IMG/VR virus record: IMGVR_UViG_3300004448_000020
Location: 1 to 28,208 of that record
Length of the DNA stretch: 28,208 nt
Source of the DNA: a virus
Reading direction: 5' to 3' (one strand)
Part shown: positions 4,886 through 16,603 of the stretch, in pieces
How positions within the stretch are numbered: position 1 is the stretch's first letter
Layout: each line of letters opens with the position of its first letter
The notes under the pieces: generated by a model
Told to the model about the DNA's origin: nothing
What the model saw: the letters and a program-made list of their open reading frames with translations, nothing else
The model's database searches: none
Made by a program: the position numbers and the translations under genes

Positions 4886-4893
4886 TATTTATG
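4886..4893 (-). promoter_or_regulatory. T4-like late promoter before gp5
   Basis: The minus strand reads CATAAATA, matching the T4-like late -10 element (TATAAATA in T4; the first base varies here). It ends about 25 bases before the gp5 ATG and overlaps the last two bases of the tRNA-Val gene. Confidence 0.65.
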
Positions 4894-4963
4894 GGCGAAG
4901 AGGGGATCGAACCCCCGACAACCTCCGTGTAAAGGAGACACTCTACCGCTGAGTTATTCGCCC
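4892..4963 (-). tRNA. tRNA-Val (anticodon TAC)
   Basis: A 72-base cloverleaf on the minus strand: acceptor GGGCGAA pairing with TTCGCCC, a D-arm with ACTCAGCGGTAGAGT, anticodon stem TCTCC/GGAGG around loop TTTACAC (anticodon TAC), T-arm with GGTTCGATCC, and discriminator A. No CCA is encoded; the next bases are TAAATA. Its first 10 bases are also the last codons and stop of the CpeT-like gene. Phage tRNAs of this kind are thought to supplement host decoding for AT-rich phage codons. Confidence 0.92.
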
Positions 4964-5406
4964 ATTCGAGTGAATTTATAGAGTAATTCACTACCCCACA
5001 TCATCTCCCCCTCAGAATTGTAACCTTGGTCTTTACTATGAAGTTTACCTCCATATAAATGAATTTCTGCTACAACTCTATATCCCCGAACACCAGTGCA
5101 TTCACTACCGCCAAGTTGACCGTGCCATGCATTGCCGTCGTATGTAAATATCATATCACAGTTTCCTGCTCTTGTCCAGTTCAAATCATAGTTTTGAAAA
5201 TGAACTTCAGTCTCTGAAATTACAATCGCTTTATGATACCGTTCTCTATAAGGATTTTCTGGTCCATCACATCTATAATAATTTTTAGAGTGGTATCCAC
5301 CATCTATTTTTTCCCAAAGTATTTCAACTGTAGAATACTTAGTTGGTTGACTTTGTGCTTGATATCTATTAGACCAATGACCTAAAATATAATCATCAAT
5401 CTTCAT
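4954..5406 (-). CDS. cpeT: CpeT/CpcT-like phycobiliprotein lyase family protein
   Basis: I start at the ATG at 5406 ([21 protein letters not shown]...), giving 150 residues; an in-frame start seven codons earlier lies inside the CP12 gene. The order of motifs fits the CpeT/CpcT (DUF1001) family: [10 protein letters not shown] near the N-terminus, then [29 protein letters not shown] and [12 protein letters not shown]. Family members attach or chaperone bilin chromophores on phycobiliproteins; phage copies are shorter than many host ones. It overlaps cp12 by 11 bases and the tRNA-Val by 10. The context (CP12 plus CpeT) points to manipulation of host light harvesting and carbon metabolism. Whether it is an active lyase cannot be judged. 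Confidence 0.8.
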
Positions 5407-5623
5407 ATACTCTACACTCTGGCTCACTTGGGTTCTGATCGCAGAACAATTCTAAGTATGATGGGTCATGATGATCGCCTGCTTCAATCTCTTTCTTATG
5501 ATGTTCTGCATACTCTTCTAGTTCGTGCAGTTCACCTTCAATGTGACGGCGTTGGTTGGGAGAAATTAGAGGGTTGTCAAGAATTTCTTTGTCCTTGGCA
5601 ATATGACTTTCGATGTTTTCCAT
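5396..5623 (-). CDS. cp12: CP12, Calvin cycle inhibitor
   Basis: A 75-residue, very acidic, helical protein ending in the CP12 signature: FCDQNP followed by ECRVYED, with Cys61 and Cys70 as the C-terminal redox pair. The middle segment (ELHELEEYAEHH) corresponds to the core helix of CP12. The N-terminal cysteine pair of many host CP12 proteins is absent. Known: CP12 bridges GAPDH and phosphoribulokinase and shuts down the Calvin cycle in the dark; cyanophages carry it to divert carbon to the pentose phosphate pathway. It is first in a two-gene cassette with cpeT, behind a late-type promoter, inserted between tail genes. Confidence 0.88.
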   Translation of the reverse strand: MENIESHIAKDKEILDNPLISPNQRRHIEGELHELEEYAEHHKKEIEAGDHHDPSYLELFCDQNPSEPECRVYED

Positions 5624-5648
5624 AATTGGTGATTAATCTTCATAATTT

Positions 5649-5656
5649 TATTTATT
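5649..5656 (-). promoter_or_regulatory. Putative late promoter of the cp12-cpeT cassette
   Basis: AATAAATA on the minus strand, overlapping the stop codon of the gp27-like gene and ending about 25 bases before the cp12 ATG. It fits the NATAAATA pattern seen before gp5, gp26 and the fibre gene. It would place the cassette under late control. Confidence 0.5.
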
Positions 5657-7031
5657 GACGAATAGAATCCTTTAATAGCAAAAGTTCGGTTGTCATGTTA
5701 TTTCCGAGGATTTTATGCGTCAATCCAGCTATTATATACCGTCCACTGTATTTTTTGTCAATCTTTGTTTTATTTCCAGATTTGGCAGTGCTTGGTATCG
5801 TGATTTCAATACCATGACCCGCATACAAGTCTAAATTGCCAGGAACACTGATTTGAAGTTTTAATGTTTTTAATGCTTCAATCCTCATCCATTGATATGC
5901 TTGAAGTTCAACTAACTGCTCATAGGTTGCGCCTATAGTATCAGTATCTTTTTGGTCAAATATTTGATTGGGCATAATACTATAACGTACCCTTTTTGGA
6001 TATTTTATCATTTCTTGAATGCCTTTATCCATAGATTCAAGAGGATTTTTATTCTGACCTCCTTGAAGATGAGACATCTTTGACCACAGTTCAAAAATAG
6101 AATATCTGTACGCATCTGCTGATAAATCGGTACTTGCCCCCATTTTAGAAGATGATATCGTAACAGGGTCTAATCCAATACTAAATCCTGACCATGCACC
6201 ATGTCTCAATCCCATCAAGAAATTTCTTTCTTCAGGAAAAACAATACTATCAATTTTGAATTGGTCAGCAGATTGGTTCTCACTGGTTCTCTTAGGAATA
6301 TATTCGTAACGATATAATCTTGGTTCTCCAGTATTATAATTTGTTTTTCGTGATGGTGATTGGGAGTTTACATCATCAATCATTTTGTCAATAGACTTAT
6401 AATGATATCCAAATGCATTCTCAAAAAATACATATCCACTTTGTAAAGACTTTGATGAATTGCCTGCACGAATAGAACGATTGCACATCCAGTAAATGCA
6501 ATCAAATGGTCTCCAATTAGGAATTATATAATCGTGTGCATTCAAAGTATCCTCAGTAAAAACTCTCTTATTTGTACCTAAAAATCTATTACTCCTTAGT
6601 AACAATTTTAAAATATTGTCTGCTCTAGTATCATTGTTAAAAAGTACCGTCGTATTACCAAATACATTAGTAATTTCATTTTTAATATATTCTTCAGATG
6701 CCATACTTACAATGTAAACATCTGTGCTTTGACTTACTCTAGAACGAGATTCAATATTATATGAACGAAGATAATATGTAAAGTTTGAAATCGAACCGTT
6801 AATCTGCAACTTAAAAATTTCAGAACCTGTTAGTGAACCAATTAATCCTGCCGAGTCATTAATAACTACTCTTGCCTCTAGAGTTGCAGATGTGATACTT
6901 TCAAATACTTCTATAGCAGTAACAAACTCATTTAAATCTTTACCACCATCAGAATTGGTAAGGTCTTCACCATTTCTATTAATGATTAATTTATATTCTA
7001 CTGATCCAGATTCTGACCTTGGTAATGCCAT
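5652..7031 (-). CDS. Putative baseplate hub protein, gp27-like
   Basis: A 459-residue beta-rich protein (MALPRSESGSVEYKLIINRNGEDL...). The N-terminal half has strands alternating with FKLQINGS and YYLRSYNIES segments. The middle has RPFDCIYWMCNRSI and YVFFENAFGYHYKSIDKM, and the C-terminus has DLYAGHGIEITIPS. This pattern of tube-like domains with a FENAFGYH element fits the gp27 hub protein that holds the gp5 spike. It is longer than T4 gp27 (391 residues). It starts at an ATG coupled by TAATG to the tape-measure-like gene upstream. Position between tape measure and gp5 supports the call; sequence evidence alone is moderate. Confidence 0.65.
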   Translation of the reverse strand: MALPRSESGSVEYKLIINRNGEDLTNSDGGKDLNEFVTAIEVFESITSATLEARVVINDSAGLIGSLTGSEIFKLQINGSISNFTYYLRSYNIESRSRVSQSTDVYIVSMASEEYIKNEITNVFGNTTVLFNNDTRADNILKLLLRSNRFLGTNKRVFTEDTLNAHDYIIPNWRPFDCIYWMCNRSIRAGNSSKSLQSGYVFFENAFGYHYKSIDKMIDDVNSQSPSRKTNYNTGEPRLYRYEYIPKRTSENQSADQFKIDSIVFPEERNFLMGLRHGAWSGFSIGLDPVTISSSKMGASTDLSADAYRYSIFELWSKMSHLQGGQNKNPLESMDKGIQEMIKYPKRVRYSIMPNQIFDQKDTDTIGATYEQLVELQAYQWMRIEALKTLKLQISVPGNLDLYAGHGIEITIPSTAKSGNKTKIDKKYSGRYIIAGLTHKILGNNMTTELLLLKDSIRQ

Positions 7032-9874
7032 TAGAGAATGCCCTTAAGTGGGTTGTTAAAAGAATTTAATACTGCAGCAGTTGTTTGAAGACTTGCACCG
7101 CCGCGACCACCACCTACAAGAGATGGAGTAGAACTAGATGATTGTGCCTTTTGAATACTAGATTGAGTTGCCATCGCTGCTTGTTGAACTTGCTGCATTA
7201 CAACTTGATTTTGACCAGTAGCAGCACCCATCATAGAAGATGCCAATTGCCTAGAACTATTTAATATAGTTTGTTTTGCTCTATTACGCTCTTCAGTTGC
7301 TGTTTTCAATGCAGATGCATCCTTATAAGTTTCTCCACTGGTTCCATATACACCACTATATGGAGCATAGGATTCAGACTGTCTTGCAAAAGGATTTGCC
7401 CCCCTACCTGTTAAATCATCGAACAAGTTTCTTTTTGCTGCTCCTCCAGTAGCAGCAACATCTCTGATATCATGACCACTTTGAGTCTTGCCTGTACCAG
7501 TTTCAGATATTTGTCCAGATTGCGATCCAGTAAAACCAGGAATACCAGCAGCAGATTTACTTTTTCTTCTTTGTTGTCCACCGCCACCAACAAACCAACC
7601 AAAGAAGTTATTTGGCATGTTGCCTTTTCTTCTTACATCACCTTTATTAAAGTCAGGAACTTCATTACCACCCATGAAGTCAGTTCTACCACCAACGAAC
7701 GCTGCTGCATTCTTTTGCAATGCTTTATTCTGCAGTGCCTTAGCAACTCTTTTTACATAAGAGACTGGTTTTCCCATTGCTCTTGCAGCAGAATCGGCAT
7801 CTTTGATTGCATGCCATTCTGCATTTGGTTTTCCAGTAGCTCCTGCTCTAGGATATTTCCAGGTAGGTTCATATTGCATTCTTCCAAGAAGATATCCAGA
7901 AATACTACCATTGATTTGATTGAAATTAACTCCTGATGCTTTTCTGTTGTAGACAGATTGAGCAACATCCGCCCAACCTTGAGCATCATTATCTTCAGTA
8001 CCAGCAACAGCAGCAAGAGTCCAGAAATCCTTACCCTTACCCATACCACCGCCAGTATTCGCTGAAGACTCACTAGGAGTTGTTGCAGCAGGTGCTGCTT
8101 GGGATTGACTACTCAATCCATCAAAGTCTGTCATTCCGCCTGTCATAGCATCTACAGCACCCTGGAATCTACTCATGATACTTCTTTGAGGTCCAGGTCC
8201 CATAGCGGAATCGTCATGGTTATTTTTTGGTTTTCCTCCAGATGGTCTATTGCCACTAAGCAAACCCATTTGCTGCTTAATCATATTACGAATCTTAGGA
8301 CCACCTGAGAGGTGTTTTTCGCCAGCATAAAGTTTAGATAAATCCCAACGATAATGACTACCTTTATTGCGGTCATACCAATTTGGATAATCTCTATATT
8401 CTTCAGCGTGTGTTCTTACTCTCTTATCAGTGATGTCTGAAGGTTTCCATCCCCAATTCAAAGCAAGTGCGGCAGATTCCTTTGCCATACCTTGATATTG
8501 GTTTTTCGTAATTGCTTGAGAACCAAAACTAGAACCATTTTCATTATTAGCAGTTGACATGCCAGCAACACCAATTGCTGCAGACTGACTTTTATTTCTT
8601 CCGTAGGTATGATGTGGTACACCAGTTGAACCATATTTTGCTCTACGAACAGGTTGTCCACTAGAAGGAATGTAAGTGTGATATCCATATCCATTATGAA
8701 AGTTGGTGGCATTCCTATTACCAGCACTCCAATGCAAGAATATCTTCTTATTGGCATTATCTCCCTGAGTATTATCCTGCCTCTTTGATGCGTCTAAGTA
8801 TCCACCTTGAGAGAATCCAGGAAGTTTATATCCACCTCTTTTTGCCTCACCAATTCTCTTAGAGGTGAGACCAGACATTCTTTGTGTTGCTGGTGTATTA
8901 AAGGGAACTACAAATGCTCCACCATCAGCTTTACGCGCAACATATTCTTTACCATGACCGATAAATGAAGTACTTCTACCTCCATCTAATGATACTTTAT
9001 ATCCAGACTGAGGACCATTAATCCATCCACCAGCATGTGCTTTTTTTATCTTACCACCATGTGCCTTTTCTTCTGGTTTATCTTCATTTAAAGATTGGAA
9101 TGCCCGATAAGAACCATACGCCAAACCTGCACCCGCTGCTAGTCTTAAAGCACCACCGCCTCTTCCGCCACGTCTTCTTCCCCCTGTCCTACCTCGTCCT
9201 GTAGCAAATCTAATCAAAGTAGAAATTGCTCTACCGATATCAGTAACAATTTTTAATGGATTGGCAAGATAACGTGCCCCCAGTAAAAGTGTTCCGACAC
9301 CAACTAATAACTTACCAACAGATAGAGTTTTGTCCCACCAACTAGTATCATCCGACAATAATGTGTATAAAGAATCAATAGTAGTTGTTATACCAAATTT
9401 TGCCCAATCAAATATAAATTTACCAATCTTAGCTATAACACCAATAACATTCTTAACAGTTTCTCTATTTTTAGGATTAGATAACCACTTTAATGCTTTA
9501 GTACCAACATAAAATTTAAACAGTCCACCAAGCATCCCTAAGATACTTTCAAAAAATCCCTTTGCTTTACCGCCAATAATCGAGGCAAAGAAACTTTTTT
9601 CTCTCTTCGTTCCTTTTTCATCAGCAAAGTTTGACTTGAAGCTAGATCTGTTCTCCTTTTGTTCCCTCTCAAGGTCAATTATAGCAATTTTTTTGAGGTC
9701 TGTCAAGACCTTTCCTAAACTGTTAAGGGTTCCCCCTAGATTATTAATCGCTTTTGTGTTAGAATTGATTACCGATGCTACTTCACCACTACTTTCCGAG
9801 GCAGAAGAGACTTCTTTTACCTGGACAAACTTATAAAAATTTATTTTACTGCTTTTGTTTACTGCCGTTGCCAT
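7031..9874 (-). CDS. Tape-measure-like tail protein with amidase-like and SleB-like cell wall hydrolase domains
   Basis: A 947-residue protein. Residues 1-260 are helical with hydrophobic stretches and a motif set (INFYKFVQ, NTKAINNLGGTLNSL, LSNPKNRETVKNVI) that parallels the neighbouring 850-residue protein. Residues ~215-245 are Arg/Gly-rich. Residues ~376-520 look like an N-acetylmuramoyl-L-alanine amidase/PGRP domain: FLHWSAGN, GYGYHTYIP, and late RTHAEE and RWDL motifs as metal and substrate elements. Residues ~615-735 look like a SleB/Hydrolase_2 domain: LAAVAGTEDNDAQGWADVAQSVYNR, with a Glu in the expected place. The C-terminus is low complexity (Ser, Gln, Ala). I infer it sits in the tail and opens the peptidoglycan during DNA entry. 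The domain calls come from motifs only. Confidence 0.7.
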   Translation of the reverse strand: MATAVNKSSKINFYKFVQVKEVSSASESSGEVASVINSNTKAINNLGGTLNSLGKVLTDLKKIAIIDLEREQKENRSSFKSNFADEKGTKREKSFFASIIGGKAKGFFESILGMLGGLFKFYVGTKALKWLSNPKNRETVKNVIGVIAKIGKFIFDWAKFGITTTIDSLYTLLSDDTSWWDKTLSVGKLLVGVGTLLLGARYLANPLKIVTDIGRAISTLIRFATGRGRTGGRRRGGRGGGALRLAAGAGLAYGSYRAFQSLNEDKPEEKAHGGKIKKAHAGGWINGPQSGYKVSLDGGRSTSFIGHGKEYVARKADGGAFVVPFNTPATQRMSGLTSKRIGEAKRGGYKLPGFSQGGYLDASKRQDNTQGDNANKKIFLHWSAGNRNATNFHNGYGYHTYIPSSGQPVRRAKYGSTGVPHHTYGRNKSQSAAIGVAGMSTANNENGSSFGSQAITKNQYQGMAKESAALALNWGWKPSDITDKRVRTHAEEYRDYPNWYDRNKGSHYRWDLSKLYAGEKHLSGGPKIRNMIKQQMGLLSGNRPSGGKPKNNHDDSAMGPGPQRSIMSRFQGAVDAMTGGMTDFDGLSSQSQAAPAATTPSESSANTGGGMGKGKDFWTLAAVAGTEDNDAQGWADVAQSVYNRKASGVNFNQINGSISGYLLGRMQYEPTWKYPRAGATGKPNAEWHAIKDADSAARAMGKPVSYVKRVAKALQNKALQKNAAAFVGGRTDFMGGNEVPDFNKGDVRRKGNMPNNFFGWFVGGGGQQRRKSKSAAGIPGFTGSQSGQISETGTGKTQSGHDIRDVAATGGAAKRNLFDDLTGRGANPFARQSESYAPYSGVYGTSGETYKDASALKTATEERNRAKQTILNSSRQLASSMMGAATGQNQVVMQQVQQAAMATQSSIQKAQSSSSTPSLVGGGRGGASLQTTAAVLNSFNNPLKGIL

Positions 9875-12426
9875 TATTGCATCCTGGTTGTCAGACTAGA
9901 AGGTCCACCACTTACGGCACCACCACCTGTATTTATGGGTACAGCTTGCATAATCGGTTGTAATTTTTCTACAACGATAGGAAGAGGTATAAATTCCACT
10001 ACTTCGTCAAGAATTAGTCTTTCAGACAATCCTCCAGGGGAAAGTACTTGTTTAGACACACTCTTAGTAGCACCAATAACTTTAGGATTAATTCCTAATG
10101 CTCCTGCAGTTGCCGATACACCATCAACATAATCCCCACTCATAAACGAATTAATAATTCCATCTAATCCAAATTGCATTGCAGCAGTATCTAACATATT
10201 CATAGGACTCATTCCACCTTTGAATATTGCTCCTGCAAGTTGTCCGATAGCAGGGTTAATCATTGATAAACCTGTACTTAATGCTTGGTCATAATTAGCA
10301 CCCATTACATTTGTTAGGATACTACCTATAGCACTATTACCCATGAAGTTACCAATAGCATTACTAACACCAGGTAAGAATGATGTAGCAGCGTTCATAA
10401 GACCTTGAATTGGATTTCCCGAAGCAAGTCCTGTAACTGCATTTACGCCTGCCATGATGGGTGCTACCCCAGGAATAAACGATGCAGCAGTTTTTACAAC
10501 ATTGCCGATAGGAGAGTTTACAACTCCACTTACTGCCTTGCCGATGCTCTTAACAACACCACCTAGGAACATCTGCTGTTCTGGTTCAACAGGACTTGAA
10601 TTTTCAGATTTATTAGACCCTGTTACCATACCAATGAGTTCACCGATATTAGGCAACTTACTCAATACACTATCAATTTGACTTTTAAATCCAGATAGTC
10701 CTAAACCTTCTACTACTTTATTTTCACCCTCTTGTAATTGAGGAACAAAATCACGAACGAACATATATCCGTCGAGAAGCATTGATGCTACACTACCACC
10801 ACCTGCTGTAAAAAGACCAGCAATATCCAAGATACCTGATGTACCTTCAATTAATGCACCAATAGAGTCGCCATTTGCTGCCCTATCATAAGCAAATCCA
10901 AGGTTTACAAGTCCACCAATAACAGGAAGAACTGCAGCTGCCCTTTTTCCTAACTTACCCCCTGCGGTTGCAACGTCAGCGAAACTGCCAATGCCCTTCT
11001 TTTTAAGAACCTCAGCAGCCTGCTTCATACCAGGGATCTTCATTAAGTTTTGAGTTAATGCATCCCCTACTAGTTTTGCTTTTGCTGCAATTGGATCTAT
11101 AATAGGTCTTAATGGATTCAGTACTTTTTCAAAAAATACATTTTTGGCACCTTGTGCCATATTGCTTAAAAATTTCTTTCCTCCATCAGCAACCCAATCT
11201 CCTGCTGCCTTAAACTTATCTCCTGCTGCCAGTGCATATTTCTTTCCTTTTGCACTTATTACTTCACCTGCTTTAACTGTCTTTTCCCATGCTGCACGTC
11301 CTGCTGCAGAAAGGTTTTTATATTGATTTTTTGCCCACTCTGGAGCATTCATCAATCCAGTTTTAAACCAATTAAATGATGCTGCCGTTCCTTTTCTAAT
11401 ACTAGTCCCAAGGTCGCCAAAAAAGTCTAAACCTCTTTGTAGTCTAGATGGTTTTGGAGGTGCAATTTTTGTTAATTTAAGACGATTGAATGCCTTTAGT
11501 GCTTTGGATGCATCACCACCAGAATTTTTTAACGCATTAGCGTATGCTCTCGCAGCATCATCACCATACTCGGCAAGAATCTTTTTATATTGTTTTGATG
11601 CAGCATCACCAAACTGATCTGCAATAGTAGATACCTTTGGTCTCTTTCTAGGACCCTCTACATCAGGGTCTGCGCCACTAGGGTTCGTTGCTGTAGGTTT
11701 TGGCGGTTTTCTTGGTTTATCCGCATCTGGTGTTCTACGTCTATCAGGAGTATCTTGGAGATCTTGTTGCGCTTGAAATAAATCTCTAGCTGCAAATGCA
11801 GCACCCAAGATACCTGATATCCCCGTAATCGCGGCAACAATCTTGCCGAAAGCGTTTAGTCTCTCTCCAATAGTTGATTCTTTACCGAAGATGGCATCCA
11901 TTCCATCCGATAAACCTTGAGTTATTTTACCAGCAAATTCTGATAATTTGTTGAAAATAAATCCAACTTTATCTACAAATACTGCTACCTTTTCTCGATT
12001 TTCTTTATCACCTAGGTATTTTAATAATTCAGCAGTGAGAGCAAATGTACCAAAATCTAGAAGAATTTTACCTAGAGGTCCAATAAATTCTTCTAACCAA
12101 TTAAGACTACCTTTCCCAACATTTAATTTCTGTTTATCTGCTCTAGGGTCTTTCTTTTTTAATAACTTACTAGTTTCTTCGTTTTCTTCTGCTTCCCTAT
12201 CTTTCTTTAATCTTTCTTGTCTGCGCTCTAATTGTGTAGATTTTAATCTCGTTTTCTCTCTAAGAGCAGCAATAGAAGAAAGACCAGCAACTGTGTTTGC
12301 TAAACTTTCAACGGTCACACCAATCCTATTGATAGCAAGAGTTGAAGTTCTTGCTGCAATCGTATCTGGATTTTTACTAGATGTAAATCTAGGATTTACA
12401 AACTTATAAGGTGTTATTTTAGCCAC
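9874..12426 (-). CDS. Tail tape measure-like protein (gp29 position)
   Basis: An 850-residue protein, mostly helical. The N-terminus has coiled-coil-like charged segments (LREKTRLKSTQLERRQERLKK at ~55-75), then hydrophobic segments at ~120-215 (GKILLDFGTFALTAELLKYL, IVAAITGISGILGAAFAARD). A Pro/Lys-rich stretch lies at ~220-255, and a Gly/Ala/Ile-rich C-terminal half has many membrane-like stretches. These are tape measure features. The start is GTG at 12426, which sits inside the last codons of the gp26 frame-shift extension. It lies directly after gp26 and its extension, where tape measure genes lie in other tailed phages. Assignment to T4 gp29 is by position and composition. Confidence 0.65.
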   Translation of the reverse strand: MAKITPYKFVNPRFTSSKNPDTIAARTSTLAINRIGVTVESLANTVAGLSSIAALREKTRLKSTQLERRQERLKKDREAEENEETSKLLKKKDPRADKQKLNVGKGSLNWLEEFIGPLGKILLDFGTFALTAELLKYLGDKENREKVAVFVDKVGFIFNKLSEFAGKITQGLSDGMDAIFGKESTIGERLNAFGKIVAAITGISGILGAAFAARDLFQAQQDLQDTPDRRRTPDADKPRKPPKPTATNPSGADPDVEGPRKRPKVSTIADQFGDAASKQYKKILAEYGDDAARAYANALKNSGGDASKALKAFNRLKLTKIAPPKPSRLQRGLDFFGDLGTSIRKGTAASFNWFKTGLMNAPEWAKNQYKNLSAAGRAAWEKTVKAGEVISAKGKKYALAAGDKFKAAGDWVADGGKKFLSNMAQGAKNVFFEKVLNPLRPIIDPIAAKAKLVGDALTQNLMKIPGMKQAAEVLKKKGIGSFADVATAGGKLGKRAAAVLPVIGGLVNLGFAYDRAANGDSIGALIEGTSGILDIAGLFTAGGGSVASMLLDGYMFVRDFVPQLQEGENKVVEGLGLSGFKSQIDSVLSKLPNIGELIGMVTGSNKSENSSPVEPEQQMFLGGVVKSIGKAVSGVVNSPIGNVVKTAASFIPGVAPIMAGVNAVTGLASGNPIQGLMNAATSFLPGVSNAIGNFMGNSAIGSILTNVMGANYDQALSTGLSMINPAIGQLAGAIFKGGMSPMNMLDTAAMQFGLDGIINSFMSGDYVDGVSATAGALGINPKVIGATKSVSKQVLSPGGLSERLILDEVVEFIPLPIVVEKLQPIMQAVPINTGGGAVSGGPSSLTTRMQ
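9930..9937 (-). promoter_or_regulatory. Possible internal late promoter before the second tape-measure-like gene
   Basis: CATAAATA on the minus strand, inside the 3' end of the upstream coding region and about 56 bases before the ATG at 9874. The match is as good as the others, but intragenic copies can arise by chance. Confidence 0.35.
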
Positions 12427-12613
12427 TTGCTGCCTGCTGCTCCTTCATACGTTTTTCTTCTTCTTTTAGGAATTGTATTAACATATTGACATAGATTTCC
12501 TTTTCCCAAGGCATTAGGTTGTCAATGTGTTCTATATTCCATTTATGATGATGCATTAATGAAAAATTGCCTTCATAATAAGAGCGAAGATTTGTATGGA
12601 GGAGTGCTATCCG
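12419..12613 (-). CDS. -1 frame extension of gp26 (putative tape-measure chaperone T-like domain)
   Basis: This frame has no clear start of its own near its 5' end but is open from the last base of a perfect slippery heptamer at the end of gp26 to a TAA at 12419-12421. A -1 shift there would add 64 residues to the first 236 residues of gp26, giving a ~300-residue fusion. The added part contains SYYEGNFSLMHHHKWNIEHI, then DNLMPWEKEIYVNML, and ends in a charged helix (FLKEEEKRMKEQ). This HHH-x-W plus helix pattern resembles the short second frame found downstream of tail assembly chaperones in other contractile systems. An internal ATG at the MHHHKW motif could alternatively start a separate ~45-residue protein. 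It overlaps the next gene's GTG start. Confidence 0.65.
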   Translation of the reverse strand, partial: RIALLHTNLRSYYEGNFSLMHHHKWNIEHIDNLMPWEKEIYVNMLIQFLKEEEKRMKEQQAASG

Positions 12614-13320
12614 AAAAAAGATGCCAGACCTTCTAAAACAATTTCGTTTTCTACCCCAGTATTGGGATTAGTCACTTTAAGTGTATGTGACAACTTAGGC
12701 ATGGTTTCAAAAAATTCTTGAATCATACCGAATTGCTTACTATTCAATTCTTCAAACCATTCTATAAGTTCTTTTTTAGAGACATCTACGCAATCATAGA
12801 CTTGAGCAGGATCGGAAATTGTTTTTACACAACCCGCTGCCATTTCAAAAACTTGTTCAATTTGATTAACATCCTCATCAGAAAAATTCATCTTAACGAA
12901 CATTTCAAGGGAAGGATATCCCATAGTAACGATAATTTCATCACTAAGTTTCAACTCAGTTTTATGAGTTTTATCTGTTTTGACGGTGATTTCATCTAAA
13001 GGAATTTCAACGTCAACCTCAGTCTCATTATCGTCAGGCATTGTAAGACTGATATTCACAGTCTCACCAACAGATTTTGTGCGAATTTGCAAGAATAGAT
13101 ATTCAATATCAAATGTTGAGAGATTTTTTACATCCTTAACATCAGTACAATCCGAAACAATTTTTGTAATTGCATCTACTAATTCTTCAGTTTCCCCTGT
13201 CTGAGTGGCAAGAAGAAGTAATTTTTCTTCTTTAACTAGAAATGGTCTAAAATTCACTACTTTGCCTGTTGAAGGCAGTTTCAATTTGTACTTAGGTACA
13301 TTAATCTTAGGTAATGCCAT
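12607..13320 (-). CDS. 26: Baseplate hub/tail assembly protein gp26-like
   Basis: A 237-residue protein beginning MALPKINVPKYKLKLPSTGKV, with an acidic middle (MPDDNETEVDVEIPLDEI) and a helical C-terminal half (MFVKMNFSDEDVNQIEQVFE, KKELIEWFEELNSKQF). This matches the T4 gp26/gp51 baseplate family. T4 gp26 is 208 residues. In T4 this protein assists assembly of the central hub. The last codons contain a slippery run and a TAG stop, after which the -1 frame is open (see the extension). A late promoter lies about 25 bases upstream. Position just ahead of the tape measure fits a chaperone role. Confidence 0.8.
   Translation of the reverse strand: MALPKINVPKYKLKLPSTGKVVNFRPFLVKEEKLLLLATQTGETEELVDAITKIVSDCTDVKDVKNLSTFDIEYLFLQIRTKSVGETVNISLTMPDDNETEVDVEIPLDEITVKTDKTHKTELKLSDEIIVTMGYPSLEMFVKMNFSDEDVNQIEQVFEMAAGCVKTISDPAQVYDCVDVSKKELIEWFEELNSKQFGMIQEFFETMPKLSHTLKVTNPNTGVENEIVLEGLASFFG
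12613..12619 (-). promoter_or_regulatory. Slippery heptamer for putative -1 ribosomal frameshift
   Basis: On the minus strand the sequence is T TTT TTC in the gp26 frame, a textbook X XXY YYZ heptamer, followed by GGA TAG. Slipping back one base bypasses the TAG and enters a 64-codon open frame. No strong downstream stem-loop is obvious by eye. Confidence 0.65.
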
Positions 13321-15670: not shown

Positions 15671-16603
15671 ATGGGTTATTTTAATCGTTTACCAGATACT
15701 TATATTGCTGAAGGCACATCATCGGATGAAAATTATAAGTATCGCTTAGTTAAAAATATATTCCGAAGAGCAGTTACTATTCCAAATCTGAATCAGTATA
15801 TTACTCTGTTTGAAACTTACTCGTTACGTGATGGAGAAACACCTCCAACAGTAGCATATAGACTATTAGGTGACGCAGAATTAGACTGGGTTATTTTGTT
15901 AGTTAATAATATTGTAGATGTATATGAAGAGTGGCCAAAAAATCAAGTAGATGTAGTATCTTTGGTTGAATCTAAATACGACGATCCTGACTCAGTGCAT
16001 CATTGGGAAACTAATGAAGTGTTATACAATGATATTGTTTTTGTCAAGGAAGGTACAGAAGTAAATGAATCTTTTAGAGTAGTCTTTCCTGATGGAACTA
16101 CAAAAACAAAAGAAGAATCAATATATCCAGTATCTAATTATGAATATGAAGATTATTTAAATGAAATTAAACGTCAGATTTTGATACCAAATGCAGAGAT
16201 TGCTGAATTAATTATTGAAGAATTTGATGATTTAGTTCAATATCAACCACATTCTGAATTGGATGAAAACAATGTAAAACAAACAAAACTAAGTATTGCT
16301 CAAAAATTCATTAATAGAAAGAGTTCTTCTACTGCTAGTGCAACTAGAAGAACTAATCTTTTGCCAGTAGTTAATACTTTTGACTTTGGTTCTACATTTG
16401 GTGCTTCAGTTATCACTACTGGTTCGACAGGTGCTGTTGCAGTAACAACAACATCAACCACTACAGTTGCAGGTGTTCAGTCTGTGAATCCTTCACCTTC
16501 TCCAACGCCAAGTCCTACACCATCGCCTACACCTTCTCCAACGCCAAGTCCTACGCCATCACCTACACCAAGTCCTTCACCAGGTTACGGCGGTGGATAC
16601 TAG
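15671..16603 (+). CDS. 53: Baseplate wedge protein gp53 with a Pro-Ser-Thr repeat tail
   Basis: A 310-residue protein. Residues 1-215 match the gp53 wedge protein: MGYFNRLPDTYIAEG, a NIFRRA element, GETPPTVAYRLLGDAELDWVILLVNN and VYEEWPKNQ. T4 gp53 is about 196 residues. The extra ~95 residues form a Thr/Val-rich linker and then a PSPT repeat, ending in GYGGGY. It starts four bases after the gp48 stop. gp53 helps close the hub-wedge joint. The repeat tail is probably flexible and displayed on the baseplate. Confidence 0.88.
   Translation: MGYFNRLPDTYIAEGTSSDENYKYRLVKNIFRRAVTIPNLNQYITLFETYSLRDGETPPTVAYRLLGDAELDWVILLVNNIVDVYEEWPKNQVDVVSLVESKYDDPDSVHHWETNEVLYNDIVFVKEGTEVNESFRVVFPDGTTKTKEESIYPVSNYEYEDYLNEIKRQILIPNAEIAELIIEEFDDLVQYQPHSELDENNVKQTKLSIAQKFINRKSSSTASATRRTNLLPVVNTFDFGSTFGASVITTGSTGAVAVTTTSTTTVAGVQSVNPSPSPTPSPTPSPTPSPTPSPTPSPTPSPSPGYGGGY
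16498..16569 (+). repeat. Tandem 36-base repeat encoding the PSPT tail of gp53
   Basis: Two adjacent 36-base units (16498-16533 and 16534-16569) differ at only two positions and encode SPTPSP-type residues; shorter 12-base subunits continue on both sides. The near identity suggests recent duplication by slippage. Confidence 0.85.

Follow-up and report, generated by a model that had tools for sequence, protein, structure and literature searches.

The chaperones gpG and gpGT of phage lambda, encoded upstream of the tape measure gene, are a short form and a version of it extended in the -1 frame near the 3′ end of the gene, a design like that proposed for the locus described here. The lambda slippery site is GGGAAAG, unlike the T TTT TTC of our locus. 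In a 2010 review of T4 tail morphogenesis, gp26 and gp51 are treated as hub assembly chaperones, gp51 being essential and of unknown function, and frameshifting is not mentioned. A frameshifted chaperone pair has precedent among T4-like phages, reported by Vladimirov, Gautam & Davidson (2022; Virology 566:9-15, PMID 34826709), as cited in PMC10885494 and PMC12846349. The passage of PRFect (PMC10885494) that cites Vladimirov et al. 2022 adds that in some T4-like phages a short gene is accompanied by a longer, fused one, with no frameshift; that of PMC12846349, citing the same work, gives polyT slippery sequences as known in the TAC-N genes of T4-like phages. The TAC locus of Pseudomonas phage Adele and the Vandenendeviridae (PMC12846349) resembles the present case: a -1 shift takes place on a polyT motif with which TAC-N closes at its 3′ end, and the extension used to be annotated as a gene of its own or taken for intergenic sequence; the motif there is GTTTTT, in a different phage family, whereas ours is TTTTTTC.

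The window, by which we mean the whole stretch of DNA analysed (28,208 nucleotides, from a marine cyanobacterial virus), contains the following features at this locus.

12607 to 13320, minus strand: gp26, the putative short tail assembly chaperone TAC-N, 237 aa (PF12322, E 5e-74; phrog_150, E 1.9e-84).
12629 to 12634, minus strand: Shine-Dalgarno-like AGAAGG, 9 bases 5′ of the heptamer, a possible upstream stimulator, weak here (recoding comparison).
12613 to 12619, minus strand: T TTT TTC, the slippery heptamer, in phase with gp26 and kept in nearly all relatives.
12607 to 12609, minus strand: zero-frame stop TAG of gp26, one codon past the heptamer (read from the sequence).
12419 to 12613, minus strand: putative -1 extension TAC-C, annotated in cyanophages as 'gp51', of 64 codons and a TAA (phrog_634, E 7.9e-31; coding signature of the -1 frame ahead of its first ATG).
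9874 to 12426, minus strand: next gene, 850 aa, whose GTG start overlaps the stop of the -1 frame; a tape measure candidate by position and size only.

It is very probable that gp26 is a short TAC-N and that a -1 slip on T TTT TTC adds a C-terminal domain to it, giving a long TAC-NC chaperone. The gene closes with the codons GCA TCT TTT TTC GGA TAG, and the X XXY YYZ heptamer that a sequence-only reading of this DNA had pointed out is present in the correct phase for the gp26 frame; the six bases given there as its distance from the stop were a mismeasurement, the heptamer ending 3 bases (the one codon GGA) and starting 10 bases before TAG. We infer that a minority of ribosomes, close to the end of gp26, step back one base on the heptamer, with tRNA-Phe exchanging its pairing to TTT and TTC for one to TTT and TTT, and that the shifted ribosomes bypass TAG. 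The predicted product of this tandem slip is RIALLHTNLRSYYEGNFSLMHHHKWNIEHIDNLMPWEKEIYVNMLIQFLKEEEKRMKEQQAASG, 64 codons followed by TAA (12421-12419), and the fusion would have a length of 236 + 64 = 300 residues. The -1 frame ends at the next long gene, as had been claimed, its TAA overlapping the GTG start (12426) by eight bases.

The 27 genes of the window contain 39 in-frame X XXY YYZ sites in 8306 positions, and no site other than the gp26 heptamer lies within 30 bases of where a gene ends; 19 of 2000 dinucleotide shuffles were open for 63 codons. The strong evidence for the frameshift is comparative, rather than provided by these chance figures from within the window. In the window, the -1 frame can be read without a stop from about 16 codons ahead of the heptamer; several relatives (e.g. 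L014, L021, L033-L040) have a -1 stop immediately 5′ of the heptamer, so that the shift there must fall inside the last 10 bases.

The sample comprised 186 gp26-bearing sequences, the window included, drawn from viral-contig scans and phage records. Aligning the junction across relatives, which the sequence-only reading had proposed as a check, bore it out: the T6 heptamer is present, with the C-domain in the -1 frame, at 178 of the 180 loci with a classifiable C-domain (window counted), and TTTTTTC stands exactly 10 bases before the stop at 175 of 177 tabulated loci. The arrangement extends to phages of Pelagibacter, Methylophilales, Sinorhizobium, Nitratidesulfovibrio, Rhizobium, Acidovorax, Ochrobactrum, Prochlorococcus, Stenotrophomonas and Xanthomonas, as well as to Vibrio nt-1 and schizoT4 vibriophages; TTTTTTT or TTTTTTG replaces TTTTTTC in some of these phages. 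Frameshifting is reportedly conserved in several T4-like groups. A viral-contig scan with the gp26 of SRB7757 found no relatives. Sequencing error as the source of the open -1 frame is excluded by its conservation in independent records.

The sequence-only reading had also held that relatives with the downstream frame and no slippery run would speak against it. Two loci, in Kuttervirus Salmonella Se_AO1 (L189, 4795-5000) and Vibrio phage D532 (L046, 5720-5900), retain the -1 C-domain but lack a T6 run where gp26 ends (ATTTTCATT and CTTTTCAAG, respectively); a different slip sequence may be used in these two, or initiation may be coupled. A different departure is seen in S-SCSM1 (L050, 4714-4760), in which the heptamer is intact and an 11-base insertion after the gp26 stop places the C-domain in the +1/-2 frame. 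The insertion, which L135 and L136 do not have, may be real or a sequence error.

The codons at the slip site are themselves informative. Among 38 lineages, defined as clusters at 70% identity, the last two phenylalanines of gp26 are encoded by TTT (36 of 36) and TTC (36 of 37), while other conserved phenylalanine columns mix the two codons; under gp26 codon usage the log10 P of this freezing is about -17, which is overstated in that the lineages are treated as independent. After the slip, the first 19 codons of the -1 frame contain no ATG, GTG or TTG at 36 of 43 window-clade loci, and 30 of the 42 changes within them fall at third positions of that frame (P 5e-7); in the same clade this stretch has stops in both other frames. 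Since these codons offer no start and evolve as -1 coding sequence, translation must enter from upstream. Together, the frozen codons and the -1 coding signature go beyond protein conservation.

These observations bear directly on the possibility that the C-domain is a separate small gene (gp51), with its own start codon or with re-initiation coupled to the gp26 stop. Public records do annotate it as a separate CDS, with inconsistent starts (31 codons in ACG-2014g, 57 in S-PM2), or leave the locus without any annotated gene, as in the Acidovorax ACP17 and Ochrobactrum ORM_20 records. An ATG is found 2-6 codons into the -1 frame in many lineages, and because of its position soon after the slip site coupled re-initiation could contribute in those relatives. 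However, the start is not conserved between clades, and the early ATG, where present, is often inside a predicted hairpin; the internal ATG of the window (LMHHH) is itself not conserved, the corresponding residues being LVQHH in L032-L040. A separate start is difficult to reconcile with the 36 window-clade loci whose 19 startless codons evolve as -1 coding sequence, and re-initiation would leave the frozen synonymous positions of the heptamer unexplained. We therefore regard a separately started gene as very unlikely. The -1 frameshift giving a short and a long chaperone, as the sequence-only reading had it, is supported by the conserved loci, by the frozen slip-site codons and by -1 coding sequence that lacks a start.

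It might also be supposed that RNA polymerase, not the ribosome, changes frame by slipping on the T6 run, since a homopolymer run exists and the resulting fusion protein would look identical. This is extremely unlikely: exactly six T precede the C in nearly all relatives, the preceding codon (AGT, TCT, GAT, GCT, GGT or AAT) never extends the run, the phase of the run to the reading frame and the C at position Z are kept, and a hairpin located about 5-6 bases further 3′ is consistent with a shift made by the ribosome. A T6 run is also shorter than the runs usually reported to slip in transcription.

A downstream RNA stimulator and, in bacteria, an upstream Shine-Dalgarno-like one are common but not obligatory for -1 frameshifting. 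Across relatives RNA structure is in excess immediately 3′ of the slip site (at offset 0, mean z -1.94 with 47% below -2; at 21 other offsets, mean z -0.8 to +0.25 and at most 17% below -2), and roughly half of the lineages have a downstream hairpin, which may be new. Its stem is typically GTATGGCTCA/TGAGTCATAC, starting right after the stop and having the early ATG inside; L103 has a GCG/CGC variant. When one fixed hairpin was assumed across all non-window lineages, covariation was near null (51% standard pairs against 47.7% with re-dealt partners), because the stems differ between lineages. Upstream, lineages carry a GAGGG or GGAGGG stretch nine bases before the heptamer, and pairing to the anti-Shine-Dalgarno sequence is stronger in the lineage set than in synonymous recodings (mean -7.1 versus -5.4 kcal/mol, 0/300). 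The window's own Shine-Dalgarno-like site was no better than its synonymous recodings, and its downstream RNA has no notable structure (z -0.36), a downstream stimulator thus being absent here. It is possible, though on balance doubtful, that cyanobacterial and proteobacterial T4-like phages share a composite element with three parts: T TTT TTC itself, the Shine-Dalgarno-like stretch 9 bases ahead of it and, starting about 5-6 bases after it, a hairpin in which the only early internal ATG is hidden in many lineages. The sequence of this hairpin would turn over fast and would have been lost in some phages, such as that of the window, and in S-SCSM1 the extension would have moved to the -2/+1 frame.

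The two parts of the proposed protein belong to conserved families. The window gp26 matches PF12322 at 249 bits (cut-off 24.5), and the -1 product falls in a family of its own, phrog_634, which carries the label 'baseplate hub assembly catalyst' after T4 gp51. An AlphaFold model of gp26 (pLDDT 82, 40-sequence alignment) has as its top PDB fold match the HK97 tail assembly chaperone gp13 (2OB9), a partial and weak match at ranks 1 and 3 (E 0.52-0.62; probability 0.82; query TM 0.22) to a protein less than half as long as gp26; taken on its own this model-based match is not significant (E 0.52). A profile sequence search of gp26 against the PDB returned nothing credible. The viral matches of the model include the 'baseplate hub assembly catalyst' of Acinetobacter phage ZZ1, which fits the gp26/gp51 paralogy discussed below. 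It is proposed that the two forms would work as lambda gpG and gpGT do, jointly covering the tape measure protein and delivering it to the subunits of the tail tube.

The next gene, of 850 aa, is a plausible tape measure. It has no match in Pfam and matches phrog_790, labelled 'endolysin', and the genes found downstream in relatives match tape measures only in part. The genes at 7031-9874 and 9874-12426 share phrog_790, 1200 and 2588 in their N-termini (database label 'endolysin'), and these two large post-chaperone genes thus look like tandem paralogues. In S-PM2 (L044) the gene after the chaperone (4886-8389) encodes a phage tail lysozyme domain (PF18013, E 7e-25), and its N-terminal part gives an ADP-ribosyltransferase-like match (PF01129, E 1.3e-5). 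Elsewhere in the window, 15671-16603 encodes a gp53-like baseplate wedge protein with a long PSPTPSPTP repeat at its end.

Genes 26 and 51 of T4-like phages belong to the same family (PF12322) and have the same short/long design as the window, the difference being that T4 has a second gene for the long form, whereas in the window it would arise by the -1 shift. One PF12322 gene is found in each of 17 non-T4 phage records and three large viral contigs, and two in T4. T4 gp51 is a single open frame that matches PF12322 over residues 1-201 (E 7.7e-55) and phrog_634 over residues 147-246 (E 8.2e-24), and the C-terminal domain that it shares with TAC-C, both matching phrog_634, is visible in an alignment (A3). 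T4 gp51 is thus a paralogue of gp26 that carries this C-terminal domain as an in-frame fusion, which explains why the small cyanophage 'gp51' matches only its C-terminal part. The claim that gp26 and gp51 are one frameshifted gene in T4-like phages is thus supported for the window and its relatives, but not for T4, with its second gp26-family gene.

T4 itself does without frameshifting: gene 26 would supply the short form and gene 51 the long one. With a single gp26-family copy in the other records and two in T4, it arrives at the pair by gene duplication. For the other phages, a single gene that yields two products is far likelier than the annotated gp26 and separate 'gp51'. In the records inspected, gp26 is followed by a separately started 'gp51' of varying length, or by nothing, which indicates a widespread annotation error. 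The frameshifted and duplicated-gene versions would be two routes to the same short/long chaperone pair.
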